Positions 500-35,739 of a DNA stretch of 35,739 bases are shown one piece after another. Under the pieces are notes generated by a model. That model was not told the origin of the DNA. It saw nothing but the letters and a program-made list of their open reading frames with translations, and did no database searches. Within the stretch, counting starts at the first letter, position 1. Each line of letters opens with the position of its first letter. The position numbers were made by a program, and so were the translations under genes. The DNA is taken from contig JADFSR010000037.1 in the NCBI GenBank assembly GCA_022560615.1, forward strand, positions 1 through 35,739, read 5' to 3'. Source of the stretch: Gemmatimonadota bacterium (GTDB lineage: Bacteria > Gemmatimonadota > Gemmatimonadetes > Longimicrobiales > Gaopeijiaceae).

Positions 500-910
500 C
501 TAGAAGGGTGATCGGAAAGGGGGGTGGGCCGCGCGACCCACGCCATACGGCTTGGGTGCCCCGTGCTTGCGCGCGTTCAGGCAAGGAAGGACGAGGAGTC
601 GTAGCTCTGCTACGGCGACGAGGAGAAACGAAGGATCAACCGCGCGGGCACCGACGCGAAGCGTTGGTCGCCACGTGCCCAACACAGAACGTGACAATAC
701 CTTACAAGCCGGTGGGTTGCGGTGGCACGGTCCCATCTCCGTCTTTGGAGCGCCTCGGACCACCGCCTTCGGCGGCGGTGCCCGCTACGGCTACACCTTC
801 GCCCCTCCGCGACCCGCGCAATGCGCGGGTGCCCTCTGGGGCCGTGGCACTCGGGGACCCGTGCGACAGCACGGGTGGCGGCTCGCCCCCCTTTCCGATC
901 ACCCTTCTAG
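500..910 (+). repeat. Palindromic repeat A, copy 1 (complete, 411 bp)
   Basis: The element is bounded by a perfect 25 bp terminal inverted repeat (500-524 and 886-910) beginning ctagaagggtgatcgg and ending in six G. Two G-T pairs extend the stem to about 30 bp. Inside are successive hairpins: 536-557, 601-613, 650-668 (8 bp stem, loop GAA), 761-780 (7 bp stem), 812-830 (8 bp stem, loop AAT) and 857-876 (8 bp stem, loop GACA). An inner arm pair at 721-735/837-850 encloses the hairpins at 761-780 and 812-830. A less structured linker at about 679-710 separates the left module (525-678) from the right module (711-885). It fills the space between a TPR gene and bamD. It contains no convincing gene. 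Confidence 0.93.
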
Positions 911-2431: not shown

Positions 2432-3424
2432 ATGAGCGAATTCTCAGACCGTGCCGTCCTCGTGACCGGCGGGGCTGGTTTCATCGGCTCGCACCTGGTC
2501 GAACGCTTCCTCTCCGAGGGCGCGGCCGTTCGCGTCATCGACGACTTTTCCACGGGGAGTCGTGAGAACCTTGCGCCGTTCATGGATCGCATCGACTTGC
2601 ACGAGCAGTCCATCACAGATCCGGCGGCGTGCGCGGCGGCGTGCGTGGGCGTCGACTACGTCCTGCACCAAGCGGCTCTGCCCTCCGTGGCGCGTTCCGT
2701 CGCCGACCCGACGGCGACGCATGACGTCAGCGCGACCGGCACGCTCAACATGCTCGTCGCGGCCAACGACGCCGGGGTCCGACGACTCGTCTACGCGGGA
2801 TCGTCATCGGCCTATGGCGACACGCCGACGCTGCCCAAGCGCGAGGGGATGGCGTCGATGCCTCGCTCCCCTTACGCGGTGGCGAAGCTCGCGGGGGAAC
2901 ACTACGTGCAGCTGTTCCCGCACCTGTTCGGGCTCGAGACCGCGGTACTCCGCTACTTCAACGTTTTCGGGCCCCGACAGGACCCGAACTCCGTGTACTC
3001 CGCCGTGATCCCTCTCTTCATCAACGCCGCGCTCGGCAGACACGCACCGACGATCAACGGGGACGGTGGTCAGACGCGCGACTTCACGTACATCGACAAC
3101 GTTGTCGATGCGAACCTGCGCGCGTGCACCGCGCCGGCCGAGGGCGTGAGCGGCGAGGTCTTCAACGTGGGCTGTGGGGAACGCATCAGCGTGACGGACC
3201 TGTGGCAGGCGATTCAGGCAGCGCTCGGCATCGAGCTCGAGGCGCGGTACGGTCCGGCTCGCGCCGGAGACGTGCGGGACTCGCTCGCGGACCTGACGAA
3301 GATCTCCGATCGCTTGGGGTATGGAGTGAAGGTCTCCTTGCGCGAGGGAATCCGACTTACGGCCGATTGGCTACGGAGCCAGGGGAGTGCCGCGATGGTC
3401 GGTTCCGGACAAGCCGAGGCGTAG
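2432..3424 (+). CDS. NAD-dependent sugar-nucleotide epimerase/dehydratase (extended SDR)
   Basis: This 330-residue extended short-chain dehydrogenase has an N-terminal NAD-binding glycine motif, TGGAGFIG, at residues 12-19. The active-site pair is Tyr148-x3-Lys152 in SPYAVAKLAGEHY, with the upstream serine in YAGSSSAYGD. RYFNVFGPRQDPNSVYSAVIP and DGGQTRDFTYIDNVVDAN are typical of the GalE/WbpP-like group that acts on UDP-hexoses or UDP-N-acetylhexosamines. The exact substrate cannot be read from sequence. The product probably feeds lipopolysaccharide or capsule synthesis. The TAG stop (3422-3424) is formed by the first three bases of repeat A copy 2. A paralogue lies at 9493-10464. Confidence 0.9.
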   Translation: MSEFSDRAVLVTGGAGFIGSHLVERFLSEGAAVRVIDDFSTGSRENLAPFMDRIDLHEQSITDPAACAAACVGVDYVLHQAALPSVARSVADPTATHDVSATGTLNMLVAANDAGVRRLVYAGSSSAYGDTPTLPKREGMASMPRSPYAVAKLAGEHYVQLFPHLFGLETAVLRYFNVFGPRQDPNSVYSAVIPLFINAALGRHAPTINGDGGQTRDFTYIDNVVDANLRACTAPAEGVSGEVFNVGCGERISVTDLWQAIQAALGIELEARYGPARAGDVRDSLADLTKISDRLGYGVKVSLREGIRLTADWLRSQGSAAMVGSGQAEA

Positions 3425-3680
3425 AAGGGTGATCGGAGAGGGGGGTGTGCCTAGCACCAGGATGAAATGAACAGACGAGTGTGTGGGTTGCGGTGGCACG
3501 GCCCCACCTCCGTCGTTGGAGCGTCTCGGACCACCGCCTTCGGCGGCGGTGCCCGCTACGGCTACGCCTTCACCGCTCCGCGACCCGCGCAACGCGCGGG
3601 TGCCCTCTGGGGCCGTGCCACCCGGGGACCCGTGCGACAGCACGGGTGGCGGCCCACCCCCCTCTCCGATCACCCTTCTA
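3422..3680 (+). repeat. Palindromic repeat A, copy 2 (259 bp, lacks the left module)
   Basis: A perfect 26 bp terminal inverted repeat occupies 3422-3447 and 3655-3680. It has the same sequence as copy 1 except that AAA/TTT is replaced by AGA/TCT on both arms, so pairing is retained. The left terminus runs straight into the central linker (about 3450-3480), and the whole left module is absent. The right module holds a perfect 15 bp inner stem (3492-3506/3608-3622, GGTGGCACGGCCCCA) enclosing hairpins at 3532-3551 and 3583-3601 (8 bp stem, loop AAC). Outside the inner stem is a hairpin at 3628-3647 (8 bp stem, loop GACA). The element supplies the stop codon of the upstream epimerase and abuts the tsaE ribosome-binding site. 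Confidence 0.94.
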
Positions 3681-3685
3681 GGAGG
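3681..3685 (+). promoter_or_regulatory. Ribosome-binding site of tsaE, abutting repeat A
   Basis: GGAGG lies 8 bp before the tsaE ATG at 3694 and begins at the base after the right terminal repeat. It supports the chosen start. It also means that opening or folding of the terminal stem could affect tsaE translation. Confidence 0.7.
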
Positions 3686-5322: not shown

Positions 5323-5476
5323 CCCGTGGCCGCGAGACGCGCCGCTCTCCGCTCTGGGGATCGGTAGGGGGGCCTCGGATTAGGGTCCTTCGTCATCGTT
5401 CGTCGGGGGGGCTGGTTCGAGGCTTCATTCACGCCGATCCGACGCCGCTGCGAGCAGCATGTCTCGCGGCCGCGGG
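5323..5476 (+). repeat. Palindromic repeat B, copy 1 (154 bp)
   Basis: The outer inverted repeat is 5323-5338/5461-5476 (cccgtggccgcgagac, 16 bp with one G-T pair). An inner stem GGATCGG/CCGATCC lies at 5358-5364/5434-5440. It aligns along its whole length with 19758-19915, in the same orientation. Shared blocks include CTCTGGGGATCGGTAGGGGGG and CGCCGCTGCGAGC. It begins 5 bp after the rimI stop. The insertion sequence begins about 1 bp beyond its right end. No gene is evident in it. Confidence 0.88.
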
Positions 5477-5580
5477 TCGCTAGCCGGAAGTTCCCCGTCC
5501 GGGAGTGGCAGAACCTTGTTGCGGTTACAGGGTTTTGGGCTTATGGCGAGGTACAGCGTACTGGGAACAGTGTTGTCTCT

Positions 5581-7302
5581 CTAGAGGCGGTATGAGATGT
5601 CGAGGAGCTCGAAGGCGCGCGTCTGGAGTGGCGTGGGCTGAGCATACTGCTCGAACTCGACGTGGGTGTTGCCCATGCGCACGGTGTTCTTGGTCAGCGT
5701 CGCGAGGCTCTTCATGAGCGAGCGAAAGCTCTGGACGGGAAGGCCGTCCTCGGTGCGCTTGCGCCGCACCTTCTCCTCGGCGGCCTGGGAGCGAGCGGCC
5801 GGCTCCACGACGGAGGTTTTGCGTGCCTTGGCCGCTGCGGTATCGTGGTCGGTGAAGAGGATCGGAGCGAGGTCGCGCTCCATGTGCAGCCGCACGTAGA
5901 GCGCGAGCATGCAGAGGAACACGTGGGCCCGGACCCGGTCTACACGTCGGTGGCGGATCGGCCCGACCTCGAGCGCGAAGTCCTTCGAGATGCGGAAGGC
6001 CTGTTCGACGCGAGATAGGCGCTTGTAGGCCTCGACGACGGCCTCGCTTCCGAGTTCCTCGGCTGAGACGCTGGTGCGTAGCACGTAGATCCCGTCCAGT
6101 GCCGCCTCCTGGGCAACGGACTCGTCGTCACGCTCGAAAGTAAAGGCGTGCTCGGTGATCTCGTAGCGGAAGTGCTTGCCCATCTTCGAGCGGCCCAGGA
6201 TCCTGCCCACCCGGACCCCGATCTTGTCCTTGCCCCTGAGCGCTCTCTTCTCGCGCCGTGTGGCCTCGACCACCACCTCGAGCTTCTCCTCCGTGACACG
6301 CAGGAGCTCCTCGCGCGTGCGTGCCCGGTCCTGTGCCAGCAGCGGGTTGTAGCAAGCGATGAGTCGCTCACCGGGGAAGTCCGGCGACGTGATCTCCGCC
6401 AGATCCTGATCGTCGAACAGCGAGAGCTGAAGCGGGCCCTCCGCCGCGAGCTTGCGGATCGTGGGGGCCCGCAGCGAAGTGATCCAGTCCAGCCCCCGCG
6501 GCCTGAGCTCCTCCTCGATCCGCGCGCTGGTGAGCATGCCCCGGTCTCCGACCACGACCATACGCTCGAGACCCCAACGCTCCTGCACGCGCTCGAGCAC
6601 CGTGCTCACCGTCGCTGGATCGCCCGTGTTGCCCGCGAACACCTCGACAGCCACCGGCAGACCCTCCGGTGTCGTGAGCAGTCCGAAGAGCAGCTGGCGC
6701 TCACTCTTGCCCCGCTTCGGCCGCCCGTAGACCGCCAGCGGACACGTCCGACTCTCGAACGGTACCGTCGTCACGTCCCACAGGATCAGCTGACCCTCCT
6801 CCAGGTGACGACGGGCCAGCTTCCCCTCGATCCGCTTCTGGCCTCGCACCAACCAGTCCAGCGCCTCGTACAGATCATCGGCGTCCGCGTCCTCGACCCC
6901 CAGAGCCTCGCCCAGCGAGTTCGTCGCCGTGTCGCCTCCGAGCTGGCGGGCGGTGGCGAGCTTCGAGCATGGCTCGATCACGCGGGCACAGATCATGGCC
7001 AACGCCAGATCCCGTTTGGGGTGTGGGCGGCTGGACAGCAGCTGGGGTAGCCCGAGCTTGCGCATCGTGCCCAGCACGGCCGCCACGTGTCCGTGGGGCT
7101 GGGCCCGTAGGATCTGGAAGGCTTCTGAGGCAGGGACCAGCGTTTGTCCCTTGAGCGTGGCACGGATCGCCTCGATGGCCTCAGGGGGCAGTGCGGAGAG
7201 ATTGGCCAAGGTTCGCTTCTTGACCTGGTCGCCGACGCGGTAGGACTCGCGCAGTAAGACGGCGGGCGGCGAGTTGCGGTTGGGCACGACGTCGATGTAC
7301 AT
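5581..7302 (-). CDS. IS1634-family DDE transposase
   Basis: This 573-residue cut-and-paste transposase begins MYIDVVPNRNSPPAVLLRES and continues VKKRTLANLSALPPEAIEAI, the highly typical N-terminus of IS1634-family enzymes. The RNase H-like core shows candidate catalytic acids in LILWDVTTVPFE (first Asp), MVVVGDRGML (second Asp) and LSRVEQAFRISK (Glu). The frame is intact, so the element may be active. A GTG at 7308 would add two residues. I prefer the ATG at 7302 because it matches the family N-terminus and lies at the predicted transcription start. No Shine-Dalgarno sequence precedes either. Confidence 0.95.
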   Translation of the reverse strand: MYIDVVPNRNSPPAVLLRESYRVGDQVKKRTLANLSALPPEAIEAIRATLKGQTLVPASEAFQILRAQPHGHVAAVLGTMRKLGLPQLLSSRPHPKRDLALAMICARVIEPCSKLATARQLGGDTATNSLGEALGVEDADADDLYEALDWLVRGQKRIEGKLARRHLEEGQLILWDVTTVPFESRTCPLAVYGRPKRGKSERQLLFGLLTTPEGLPVAVEVFAGNTGDPATVSTVLERVQERWGLERMVVVGDRGMLTSARIEEELRPRGLDWITSLRAPTIRKLAAEGPLQLSLFDDQDLAEITSPDFPGERLIACYNPLLAQDRARTREELLRVTEEKLEVVVEATRREKRALRGKDKIGVRVGRILGRSKMGKHFRYEITEHAFTFERDDESVAQEAALDGIYVLRTSVSAEELGSEAVVEAYKRLSRVEQAFRISKDFALEVGPIRHRRVDRVRAHVFLCMLALYVRLHMERDLAPILFTDHDTAAAKARKTSVVEPAARSQAAEEKVRRKRTEDGLPVQSFRSLMKSLATLTKNTVRMGNTHVEFEQYAQPTPLQTRAFELLDISYRL

Positions 7303-7309
7303 GACCACT

Positions 7310-7337
7310 AATATATGATATACACATGGCGTGTCAA
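7310..7337 (-). promoter_or_regulatory. Transposase promoter
   Basis: On the - strand TTGACA (7337-7332), a 16 bp spacer and TATATT (7315-7310) form a near-consensus sigma-70 promoter. The predicted transcription start is at about 7303, next to the ATG at 7302, so the message would be essentially leaderless. An inverted repeat TGTCTA-caaat-TAGACA (7358-7374) lies about 21 bp upstream of the -35. Confidence 0.72.
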
Positions 7338-7496
7338 GACAAGAAGCATCGCTTACATGTCTACAAATTAGACAAGACTTACTGCCGCTAACTGTGCTTC
7401 TCGCTGGGACTTACAGCGCTGGAACCCTAGCCTGGGCCGGGTAACTTCCGGCTAGCGCGAGGTTGGGTCCCATCGTGCTATCCCGCCGCCCACCGA

Positions 7497-16010: not shown

Positions 16011-16024
16011 GCCGCCGGCAGGCG

Positions 16025-16049
16025 CCCCCCTTTTCCGATCACCCTTCTT
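16025..16049 (+). repeat. Solo right end of palindromic repeat A
   Basis: Six C followed by ttttccgatcacccttct matches the right terminus of repeat A copy 1 except for one extra T and a degraded last few bases. No left terminus or internal module is present, because nrdR ends only 14 bp away. It looks like the remnant of a deleted or decayed copy. It ends 5 bp before the tatC ATG, where no Shine-Dalgarno sequence is visible. Confidence 0.82.
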
Positions 16050-19757: not shown

Positions 19758-19915
19758 TCGGGGGTGCCGCGAGACACGCCGCTCTTCGCTCTGGGGATCG
19801 GTAGGGGGGCTCGGGGTTCGGGCCCTTCGTCTTGGTTCGCCGGGGGCGCTGGTTCGGGGCTTCCTCGACGCCGATCCAACGCCGCTGCGAGCGCCGTGTC
19901 TCGCGGCACCCCCGA
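19758..19915 (+). repeat. Palindromic repeat B, copy 2 (158 bp)
   Basis: A perfect 20 bp terminal inverted repeat, tcgggggtgccgcgagacac, spans 19758-19777 and 19896-19915. The inner stem GGATCGG/CCGATCC lies at 19795-19801/19871-19877. It aligns with 5323-5476 in the same orientation. The outer stems differ between the two copies, yet each remains self-complementary. It starts 14 bp after the lptD stop. Confidence 0.9.
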
Positions 19916-20180: not shown

Positions 20181-21308
20181 ATGAGACGCGTGGCGGTGGG
20201 ATCTCTGGTGATGATGCTGGCCCTGGTGGGCTGCGACGATGACTTCATATTTGGTGTGGATGCGCCAGCGGCTCCCCGCGATGTCGAGGCGAGCTACTAC
20301 GCCGGTGTGGTGACGGTGAGCTGGGGGCTAGCCCCAGCTTGGAATGGGGAGGCCTTTCGCGTGTACTCCCGCCGCGTCACCGACGCTGATTACTTCTTGA
20401 TCGCCGAGGTGACGAGCTGCGCCTTCGGGCTCTGCTCGTACGAGGACGCGAACGTGCTCGAGGGCCAGACCTACGAGTACTACGTCTCGGCGGTGGACTT
20501 CGACACCGGGATCGAGACGGCGAGCGACTATTCTGTCGAGGTCTCAGTGCCTGCCGCGGTCCCTCCTCCGGCGCCCAATGCCTTCCGAGTGATCGCGCTC
20601 GACAACGCCAACTACCTGGCGTGGGGCAACGGATCGCGCGAGGCCGAGGACTTCTCGCACTACAAAGTCTATCTCGACGACGGAACCGGCACCGAGTTCT
20701 TGCTCGGTGAGACGGACTCTGAGGGCTTCCTGGACTTACTCGCCGAGAACGGTGCGACGTACACGTACTTTGCCACCGCCGTGGACACGGACGGTCACGA
20801 GAGCTCCGCGAGCTCGACCGCTGAGGGCACTCCCCGGCCTGACTTCCACGGCGAGTGGTTGTACGACCACTTCAGTCAGCCCGCGCTTTCGGGCTTCCGC
20901 TTCTCGGAGGACGAGAACACCAACCCGATCATGAGTGGTACGTCGTTGGACCGGCACTTCCGGCTCGAGGTCGACGACCTGGGGTGGTGGCTCGTTCCGG
21001 GCCCGCAGTCAGCGATCTATCCAGTGGGCTTCGAGACCACGTCTCTCAAGTGCGACGTGGCGGCCGACGCGGGATGCGTCGACGTGACGAGCGCGCCCAC
21101 GTCGGGTTACGTCACCCTGGACATGGCACTCGAAGCGCAGGCGAGCTATGTGCTGAGAGTGGTCGGCAACGACGGTGAGCTCCACTACGGTGTGATTCGC
21201 CTGGATCTGCTCGGCTACGACCAAGACGACAACGCGCTGATGATCTTCGACTGGGCCTATCAGGTCCAGGCTGGGAACCCTGACCTGGTTGAGTCGGTGG
21301 GGCGGTGA
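20181..21308 (+). CDS. Lipoprotein with fibronectin type III-like domains
   Basis: This 375-residue precursor has a lipoprotein signal: MRRVAVGSLVMMLALVGC, lipobox LVGC, followed by DDD. Two fibronectin type III-like segments follow. The first (about residues 30-120) has APRDVEASYYAGVVTVSWG, FRVYSRRV and YEYYVSAVD. The second (about 135-220) has NAFRVIALDNANYLAWGNG, HYKVYLDDG and YTYFATAVDTDGHES. A C-terminal region of about 150 residues is beta-rich and unrecognised. It is probably exported and lipid-anchored, and its role is unknown. The ATG at 20181 is preferred over those at 20130 and 20166 because it starts the signal, with GGGAGAG upstream. A hairpin terminator follows. Confidence 0.75.
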   Translation: MRRVAVGSLVMMLALVGCDDDFIFGVDAPAAPRDVEASYYAGVVTVSWGLAPAWNGEAFRVYSRRVTDADYFLIAEVTSCAFGLCSYEDANVLEGQTYEYYVSAVDFDTGIETASDYSVEVSVPAAVPPPAPNAFRVIALDNANYLAWGNGSREAEDFSHYKVYLDDGTGTEFLLGETDSEGFLDLLAENGATYTYFATAVDTDGHESSASSTAEGTPRPDFHGEWLYDHFSQPALSGFRFSEDENTNPIMSGTSLDRHFRLEVDDLGWWLVPGPQSAIYPVGFETTSLKCDVAADAGCVDVTSAPTSGYVTLDMALEAQASYVLRVVGNDGELHYGVIRLDLLGYDQDDNALMIFDWAYQVQAGNPDLVESVGR

Positions 21309-21382: not shown

Positions 21383-21389
21383 AGCTTTG

Positions 21390-21748
21390 GGGAGCCTCTG
21401 CACAAGTAGGGCACGCCGCGTTACGGTGCCACGGCTCCAGCGGGCACCCGCGCAGGGCGCGGGTCGCGGTGCGACGACGGCATAGCCGTCGCTACGGCTA
21501 GGCGCGCCAACGACGGAGATGGGGCCGTGCCACCGTAACCCACACACTGTTTAGTCATGGCACACATGGTGTTGGGCGCAGGGGGGTCGCGGCCCAATAG
21601 GTCGTCTCTCCTCCTCGGACCACCGCCTTCGGCGGCGGTGCCCGCCCTGCTACGACTCGTCGTCCTTCCTACTCTTGAACTCGCGAGATCGGGCACCCGC
21701 GCCGAAGGCGTGGGTCGCGCGGCGCGCCCTACTTGTGCAGAGGCTCCC
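21390..21748 (-). repeat. Palindromic repeat A', repeat A core with different termini (359 bp)
   Basis: A terminal inverted repeat of 31 bp with one mismatch (21390-21420/21718-21748) begins gggagcctctgcacaagtag. It is unrelated to the termini of repeat A. Read on the - strand, the interior has the same left module, linker and right module as repeat A. It shares the inner arm pair (21421-21439/21520-21538) and the 8 bp hairpin at 21446-21464 (loop AGG). At the position of the 761-780 hairpin it carries a different one (CGACGGC-ata-GCCGTCG, 21475-21491). The right terminus ends 4 bp before the ATG of the formimidoyltransferase gene. Confidence 0.92.
21739..21743 (+). promoter_or_regulatory. 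Ribosome-binding site inside the terminal repeat of A'
   Basis: AGAGG lies 9 bp before the ATG at 21753 and is the only Shine-Dalgarno-like sequence there. It belongs to the right terminal inverted repeat, so it would be paired when the repeat folds as RNA. Confidence 0.5.
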
Positions 21749-21752
21749 TAGC

Positions 21753-22694
21753 ATGGTCAGAGTGCTCGAGGCGGTGCCGAACTTCTCCGAGGGACGCGAT
21801 CTTTCGAAGGTGCGTGCGCTCGTGGACACCATCGCGGCCACCGGAGTGGAGGTGCTCGACTGGTCGGCGGATCCAGACCATCATCGCTCCGTGATCAGCT
21901 ACATAGGGGACCCCGACCTCGTGGTTCGTGCGTCGATCGCCGCGGCGGAGTTTGCGCGAGACCACATCGATCTGCGCGAGCATCAAGGGGTTCACCCGCG
22001 TGTGGGGGCGCTCGACGTGATGCCGCTGGTTCCCTTGCACGGTGTCGATATGGTGGACGCCGTTAACGCCGCGCACCGCGTCGGGAGCGCGATCGCCGAC
22101 CTCGGCGTTCCAGTCTTCTACTACGGATACGCTTCCGATCCTGCCGGTCGTGGCCTGGCCGAGCTGCGCCGAGGCGGGTTCGAAGGCTTCGCTGGTGGGT
22201 TCCCCGAGGACCGTCGCCCCCAAGTTCCAGCGTCGGCCGAACGCCCTCATGCGACCGCAGGGGTGACGTGTGTCGGCGCCAGGCGAGTCCTACTCGCGTG
22301 GAACGTTTTTCTGCGCGGAATCAGTCGTGATCAAGCCCGCGAAATCGCTTCGCAGCTCCGTGAGCGAGACGGCGGATTCGCGGGGTTGAGGGCTTTGGGA
22401 CTCCATCTCGCATCGCAGGACCGCGTCCAGATCTCGATGAACCTCGAGGATCCTGACGAAACACCACCGCTCGCTGTCTTCTCAGCCATAGAAAAGGCGG
22501 TACACGCGTGGGGTGGGGATGTCGTTGAAACCCAAGTGGTTGGCATGATTCCGGATGCCCTTGTGCTTCCGGCGGGGCAGGACAGATTACACATTCTTGA
22601 CCTGGAACCAGCCCGCGTTTTGTCCCACCGTGTCAGGATGCACGTGCAGGGACGTCTGGACACCGGAAGGCAGACTTCGGACGATGCGATATGA
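21753..22694 (+). CDS. ftcD: Glutamate formimidoyltransferase
   Basis: The enzyme transfers a formimino group between formimino-glutamate and tetrahydrofolate, usually in histidine breakdown. The 313-residue product shows the FTCD N- and C-subdomain hallmarks: LEAVPNFSEGRD at the N-terminus, DWSADPDHHRSVISYIGDP (catalytic His region), REHQGVHPRVGALDVMPLVPL, PVFYYGYAS and TCVGARRVLLAWNVFL. It matches the stand-alone transferase length, with no cyclodeaminase domain. The ATG at 21753 starts directly at the conserved sequence. The stop overlaps the following TPR gene (ATGA). No other hut genes are present, so its pathway context here is unclear. Confidence 0.93.
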   Translation: MVRVLEAVPNFSEGRDLSKVRALVDTIAATGVEVLDWSADPDHHRSVISYIGDPDLVVRASIAAAEFARDHIDLREHQGVHPRVGALDVMPLVPLHGVDMVDAVNAAHRVGSAIADLGVPVFYYGYASDPAGRGLAELRRGGFEGFAGGFPEDRRPQVPASAERPHATAGVTCVGARRVLLAWNVFLRGISRDQAREIASQLRERDGGFAGLRALGLHLASQDRVQISMNLEDPDETPPLAVFSAIEKAVHAWGGDVVETQVVGMIPDALVLPAGQDRLHILDLEPARVLSHRVRMHVQGRLDTGRQTSDDAI

Positions 22695-35549: not shown

Positions 35550-35739
35550 CTAGAAGGGTGATCGGAAAGGGGGGTGGGCCGCGCGACCCACGCCTGACGG
35601 CGCGGGTGCCCCGTGCTTGCGCGCGTTCAGGCAAGGAACGACGAGGAGTCGTAGCCGAGCGGGCACCGCCGCCGAAGGCGGTGGTCCGACGAGGAGAGAC
35701 GATGGATCAACCGCGCGGGCACCGACGCGAAAGCGTTGG
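35550..35739 (+). repeat. Palindromic repeat A, copy 3 (left part, cut by window end)
   Basis: The left terminus of repeat A (same AAA version as copy 1) begins at 35550, right after the lolA stop. It is followed by the left module: the ACCCACGCC...GGCGCGGGT hairpin, ACGAC-gagga-GTCGT, a CACCGCC/GGCGGTG hairpin (7 bp) absent from copy 1 but present in A', and the start of the GACGC-GAAA-GCGTT hairpin at the window edge. Identity to copy 1 is high except where copy 1 carries a shorter hairpin (601-613). The right half is outside the window. Confidence 0.92.

Follow-up and report, generated by a model that had tools for sequence, protein, structure and literature searches.

One core, several end types: a gene-less MITE-like element family in Gemmatimonadota

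Can the interior of a MITE be separated from its ends? MITEs are classed and assigned to transposases by their ends, and the question is raised by an element at 21390-21748 of a 35,739-nt stretch of Gemmatimonadota DNA (the window), which is the whole of contig C37 in a 4.5-Mb genome of 105 contigs. The interior of this element matches that of another repeat of the window, repeat A, and its ends are of another type. The reading developed here, which we consider likely, is that the core of a gene-less, MITE-like element (approx. 250 nt, in which a linker joins two stem-loop modules that are inverted relatives) has on several occasions been recoupled to other ends of approx. 20-25 nt, each type resembling the ends of a different DUF772 (IS1182/IS5-type) insertion sequence. 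The features of the window on which the comparison rests are as follows; end types are numbered T1 to T5, and core types are called alpha and beta.

21387-21751, - strand: whole element, T4 ends and alpha-type core, 365 nt including CTAG-like flanks, ends paired
21727-21751, - strand: T4 end on the module-1 side, CTAGGGAGCCTCTGCACAAGTAGGG, from end-pattern and paired-end searches
21387-21411, + strand: T4 end on the module-2 side, with TTGG in place of CTAG as its outer bases, from end-pattern and paired-end searches
21576-21702, - strand: module 1, a stem-loop with hairpin inserts, matched by covariance model R2 (module 1), E 2.7e-6
21540-21575, - strand: variable linker between the modules, read against alignment A1
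21420-21539, - strand: module 2, a stem-loop with a GTTACGG...CCGTAAC stem, from inverted-repeat matches to repeat A (I2, I5), boundaries set by eye
500-910, + strand: repeat A copy, T1 ends and beta-type core, from repeat search, genome search and paired ends
3421-3681, + strand: repeat A copy, T1 ends, module 1 mostly gone, from genome searches and paired ends
35550-35739, + strand: repeat A copy, T1 end, truncated by the contig end, from repeat search and genome search
16017-16048, + strand: lone T1-like end without a partner, direct repeat D6

The inner form of the T4 element, 21390-21748 (359 nt), was correctly delimited in the original prediction: its arms, 21390-21420 and 21718-21748, are complementary at 97% (31 nt). 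One neighbour of the element is an open frame with its stop at 21308; the other is a formiminotransferase gene (Pfam FTCD_N and FTCD), which starts with the ATG at 21753. The element stops one base before this ATG (window 21748-21755); thus, the entire immediate 5' leader of the gene is supplied by the element. A sister genome of the same genus (G001, contig C107) lacks the element at the syntenic place: its flanking sequence is collinear with that of the window at 85-87% identity, but the site is too diverged for a target duplication to be read. Judged by this presence and absence, the T4 element is mobile.

In a global alignment of the T4 element (- strand) with the repeat A copy at 500-910 (+), 257 of the 336 aligned columns are identical (76%), which bears out the predicted match to repeat A. 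The similarity is one of aligned modules and not of short, low-complexity GC hairpins: the local core score is 220.5, as against a mean of 32 and a maximum of 58 in 300 shuffles, so that a chance or low-complexity resemblance is ruled out. Homology begins abruptly, as predicted, the common core opening with GCCGCGCGACCCACGCC directly inside the end. The termini, which were said to share nothing with those of repeat A, are indeed of a different type; however, they are equal in length, both start with CTAG, and they agree at 12 of 25 positions. Nested insertion of one element in another is ruled out, as both ends pair and stand in the same place relative to the core. A far stronger match to the core of the T4 element than repeat A is a T2-ended copy elsewhere in the genome (C21:52329-52617), with 93% identity over 285 bp.

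The window also holds a second family of miniature repeats with other ends (TCGGGGGTGCCGCGAGACACGCCGCTC), the two copies of which (5329-5470 and 19766-19907) are 86% alike. A piece related to this repeat occurs in G001, which differs from the window at both places. The copy at 5329-5470 is directly adjoined by an insertion sequence (5478-7457) that encodes a DDE_Tnp_1 transposase of 575 aa between CGCTAGCCGGAAGTTCCCCG-like ends; this stretch is absent from G001.

End types and their boundary with the core

The window's genome (G000) was searched twice with DNA sequence and twice with end patterns; the best 40 of 123 and the best 40 of 114 candidates were scored, so that copy numbers are lower bounds. 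At least 47 gene-less elements with two recognisable ends (195-434 nt) were obtained. The 47 listed comprise 16 with T1 ends, which are those of repeat A, 15 with T2, 11 with T3, three with T4, one with T5, and one hybrid with a T4 end on one side and a T2 end on the other. The layout is common to all end types: an end of approx. 25 nt leads through a GGGCCGCG-like joint into the core. The hybrid copy (L006, on contig C8) is without most of module 2, and so is a T2/T2 copy of equal length (L013) that has the deletion joint in common with it.

Draft assembly could in principle have joined parts of different elements into mixed-looking ones, and several of the 105 contigs do end inside elements. 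Such chimeras are a highly improbable source of the pattern, since the two ends of one element are of the same type in 46 of the 47 and the same end types occur on the same core family in independent genomes.

The outermost bases of the 47 listed elements read YTA on the left and TAR on the right (Y in 41, R in 43). TA stands on both sides in 31 of them and the outer 4-mers are identical in 18, which suggests insertion in YTAR with duplication of TA. Elements also insert side by side: one T1 element adjoins a complete T2 end, with one CTAG common to both, and in G224 a T3 element adjoins another repeat with a common TA.

The border between end and core is sharp. In a position profile counted from CTAG (87 elements, 73 and 21 groups), elements that share an end type but come from different genomes agree at 0.86 over positions 5-20, as against 0.48 and 0.46 (two sides) for elements of one genome that differ in end type. 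At positions 26-33 the order is reversed, with 0.55 and 0.59 for the same end type in different genomes and 0.74 and 0.70 within a genome across types. Sequence that tracks the end thus gives way to sequence that tracks the genome at positions 21-25; at positions 34-44, where hairpin inserts shift the register, this profile has no clear difference. The reversal indicates that the exchangeable part measures approx. 20-25 nt, the size of a transposase-recognition end.

Core trees against end types

Within the genome of the window, a tree of 37 cores (elements of at least 300 nt only) separates alpha, with T2 and T4 ends (16 rows), from beta, with T1, T3, and T5 ends (21 rows), at 100/100 support. 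End labels change 12 times on this tree, as against a minimum of four, the types being mixed inside both alpha and beta. In particular, the core of the element at 21387-21751 pairs closest with a T2-ended copy (95/93 support). Even so, the types are more clustered there than at random (shuffled labels change 19.7 times on average); thus, recoupling has been occasional and not frequent.

Ninety-seven elements were collected in total, 50 of them from relatives, and three were dropped (one of another repeat family, one duplicate arm choice, and one contig artefact). On a tree of 83 cores from 17 genomes (elements of at least 265 nt only), the genome label changes 21 times (minimum 16) and the end type 26 times (minimum 5). 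Its starred branches alone force at least eight changes for T3, seven each for T1 and T4, four for T2, and three for T5; in G029, for instance, sister cores carry T1 and T4 ends (97/89 support). Elements with both ends are found in this set in nine genomes for T3, six each for T1 and T4, four for T5, and two for T2. Groupings by ends and by core are incongruent on supported branches, and together with the hybrid-ended copy this upholds the claim of the original prediction that the ends are separable from the core.

The main rival reading is concerted evolution: the end types would be old, separate MITE lineages, the cores of which were homogenised within each genome by gene conversion, with no swap of ends. 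We regard it as a serious possibility, though one that falls short of an even chance. Cores do cluster by genome, as the 21 changes against a minimum of 16 indicate, and conversion would stop at a border of heterology, which is where the switch at positions 21-25 lies. However, homogenisation is incomplete, as alpha and beta coexist in one genome with full support, and the hybrid-ended copy represents an exchange that took in an end. Moreover, the association of core and end differs between genomes: T3 goes with beta and T4 with alpha in G000, whereas T3 goes with alpha and T4 with beta in G014. These opposite associations argue for at least some true recoupling, on the swap and the conversion view alike.

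In a later draw of 20 places in 18 genomes, picked by module 2 alone, known end types recur. T4 ends are found without mismatch in G287 (exact at positions 5-20), T5 ends without mismatch in G037, which belongs to another family, and ends first met in G008 in G239, which belongs to yet another; five of the 20 places have no end pair, or a contig-end artefact only.

Substitutions off the type consensus were counted in 45 elements of the window's genome with matching ends, one mixed-type copy and L004, one end of which is too diverged, being excluded. Thirteen occur at both ends of the same element; the other 15 are one-sided. When right ends were redealt within types, two-sided substitutions averaged 1.4 and none of 10,000 trials reached 13. 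All 13 lie at positions 12-19, where only five of the 15 one-sided ones are found (Fisher 2.5e-4). These positions are likely a recognition box in which the two ends have to match; copying between the arms is insufficient on its own, because it would not keep to positions 12-19.

The excess of two-sided, private substitutions and their confinement to this box also speak for a different history, in which the ends follow the drifting specificity of a transposase by point substitutions, so that types converge and are not exchanged. This is quite unlikely. The types stand 5-11 of 16 positions apart, yet they recur near-letter-perfect in many genomes, as the exact T4 ends in G287 illustrate, and no graded intermediates between types were seen among the classed elements of the 83-core set.

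Matching insertion sequences and the exchange of ends

Thirty DUF772 transposase loci were found in the window's genome and its relatives, and the 16 with a usable pair of inverted repeats were compared with the end types. In nine, both ends fit one type with 2-9 mismatches per 32, the next best type having 10-17; the other seven fit none of the types. T1-like ends (L142, L148) accompany IS1182-family transposases above the NCBIfam cut-off, and T4-like (L136, L137), T5-like (L147), and two T3-like pairs (L132, L134) accompany transposases above the cut-off of the IS5 model; a T3 fragment (L133) and a T2-like locus of the window's genome (L138) fall below both cut-offs. The T1 partners are the weakest matches, with 7 and 9 mismatches per 32. 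T1-T5 thus resemble the ends of different Gemmatimonadota insertion sequences of the IS1182 and IS5 families (NCBIfam NF033551, NF033581).

In three cases, one genome holds both an insertion sequence and an element of equal end type (T3 in G016, T5 in G030, T4 in G051). The T2-like insertion sequence L138, the only one in the window's genome found to resemble an end type, provides a weaker same-genome case, being imperfect at 7 of 32 positions. For T1, T3, and T4, the window's genome yielded no complete partner; several repeats there are truncated by contig ends. In contrast to the insertion sequences, the elements have no transposase, and blast of the core against the 16 insertion-sequence bodies gave only two matches of 26-29 nt (E 0.006); an origin of the core by deletion from one of these 16 bodies is ruled out. 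From the likeness of the ends we infer that each transposase moves the elements wearing its ends, and the element is probably movable by more than one transposase.

Recoupling could proceed as follows. Transposase X, which would target CTAG-like sites, would act in trans on elements with ends of type X; if this transposase died out, copies that had gained another pair of ends would carry the core onward. In the preferred route of exchange, an element would insert into the CTAG of a second one, or the template would be switched. Resolution by template switching or deletion at a short common sequence (AAG at positions 18-20, or GGGCCGCG just inside) would then leave a new end on an old core. One end would be exchanged at a time, followed by the spread of copies with matching ends. 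Single-end events are favoured because one hybrid copy exists and elements insert side by side. As a counterpoint to recoupling, hybrid ends occur in just that one of the 47 listed copies.

The core and its place among miniature elements

Alignment A1 samples 13 genomes with one to three elements each, 22 in all, chosen from those collected and free of hairpin inserts. It is predicted to fold into an end stem and two long stem-loops, with double-sided changes in 62 of 95 predicted pairs. Agreement between genomes is 0.66 and 0.67 in the modules and 0.21 in the linker (40 elements, a gap against a letter being counted as a difference), and in several genomes the linker has shrunk to a few bases. 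At five loci (L226, L225, L080, L097, L085) all that is left of it between the modules is CCC-TTC(G)-GGG, which resembles a tetraloop cap. Module 1 contains three tandem GA/GA steps, present in 15, 21, and 21 of the 22 elements, and on folding, its forward strand is the more stable of the two by 5 kcal/mol (p 0.0012); for module 2, no strand difference in folding stability was found. Applied to the opposite strand, the module-1 covariance model finds all 13 module-2 places listed for the window's genome (E 1.2e-6 to 5.7e-5); therefore, the modules are inverted relatives, one lying in sense on each strand. In pairwise comparison, the left module scores above all shuffles against the reverse complement of the right in one of five elements only.

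The module-2 model has matches in 33 of 298 Gemmatimonadota genomes, namely 24 of the same family (the window's genome included), one of another family of the order, and eight more of the class. A search of 84,980 species genomes with a module-2 DNA pattern returned 34 stretches, all titled Gemmatimonadetes, Gemmatimonadota, Gemmatimonadales, or Longimicrobiales.

Small hairpins vary within the modules. A near-perfect hairpin of 32-33 nt, TCGGACCACCGCCTTCGGCGGCGGTGCCCGCT, is present or absent by copy in the loop of either module (window 755-786, 3526-3557, 21613-21645, and 35658-35689, and many other loci), and other small hairpins stand at fixed places in the module stems. These hairpins may be independent units that move or are copied by themselves. 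In G037, a 169-nt element (L086, L243, L244) consists of the inner part of module 2 alone with imperfect CTAGTGTACCGTTGCAGAAGTCCCG ends; the same genome also holds two-module T5 elements.

It has been predicted that the core is the functional part of the element, as the conservation of the modules over the linker and the near-invariant tandem GA motif suggest. In the strong form of this idea, selection would act on the core as a structured nucleic acid, either RNA or single-stranded DNA, for which the ends would be a mere vehicle; we hold this reading possible but doubtful. Module conservation, the double-sided changes in predicted pairs, the GA/GA steps with the strand bias of module 1, and the one-module relatives with other ends in G037 all point that way. 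However, DNA palindromes also yield double-sided changes, module-deleted copies exist, and the core corresponds to no known RNA family: the window has no Rfam match at the gathering score, and in five loci there was a single match, far below threshold. A bolder version, which we put forward as speculation and think rather unlikely, is that of a selfish, folded pair of modules surviving by change of vehicle, which repeatedly replaces both of its approx. 20-nt ends and so makes use of any transposase of the IS1182 or IS5 family that happens to be present. Its stem-loops with the triple tandem G-A helix would take an active part, e.g., as a cruciform that holds the ends together or is bound by a host or transposase factor.

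In most respects, the elements are ordinary MITEs: they are short and multicopy, lack a transposase gene, and have terminal inverted repeats. They depart within the MITE kind in that their ends do not define the family, one core family carrying at least five end types. This is as unusual as originally predicted, but it has a precedent in the CMITEs of Acropora corals. The available text describes these as MITE families whose TIRs differ while their internal region, the origin of which is unknown, is highly conserved; one of the families has ends in common with an autonomous element (PMC2872659). In both groups, the internal region is more conserved between families than the TIRs. However, according to the same text, CMITEs are animal elements of approx. 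100 bp with a 75-base internal region, piggyBac-like ends, and a TTAA target, whereas the elements described here are bacterial, start with CTAG-like sequence, and probably duplicate TA; thus, they are not CMITEs, though they work like the CMITE group. Moreover, seven of the first eight TIR families of CMITEs go with internal variants, and the available text does not assign numerous end types to different transposases, unlike in the present case (PMC2872659).

Among bacterial systems, MITEPsy1 of Pseudomonas syringae has IS5-type ends, inserts at CTAG or YTAA, and has been shown to transpose (PMC3189936, available text). It is 100 nt long, with one end type and a 4-nt target duplication, whereas duplication of TA in YTAR fits the elements described here better. 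As far as the available texts go, MITEPsy1 is closest to them by ends and target, and the coral CMITEs are the closest published pattern. In inverted-repeat-replacing transposition, the IS1182-family transposase of IS1272 acts on stem-loops and replaces them; as described in the available text, the entire target stem-loop is replaced, which alone would not give a kept core with new ends (PMC5678879). TIMEs, miniature elements derived from Tn3, are likewise non-autonomous with mosaic contents, but the available account gives them constant ends and a variable interior, the reverse of the present arrangement (PMC4133298). A literature search that covered few subscription papers turned up neither this group of elements nor any other bacterial core that comes with several end types, and the main text of a review of prokaryotic MITEs (PMC10969869) does not contain the words chimer-, modular, or cross-mobili-.

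Because the ends are replaceable, the core can outlive any one transposase, which would help explain the long persistence of gene-less elements. With paired substitutions at positions 12-19 and matching insertion sequences identified, the family also constitutes a natural experiment on the specificity of transposases for ends. Finally, the conserved modules raise the question of whether the interior of a MITE does anything.
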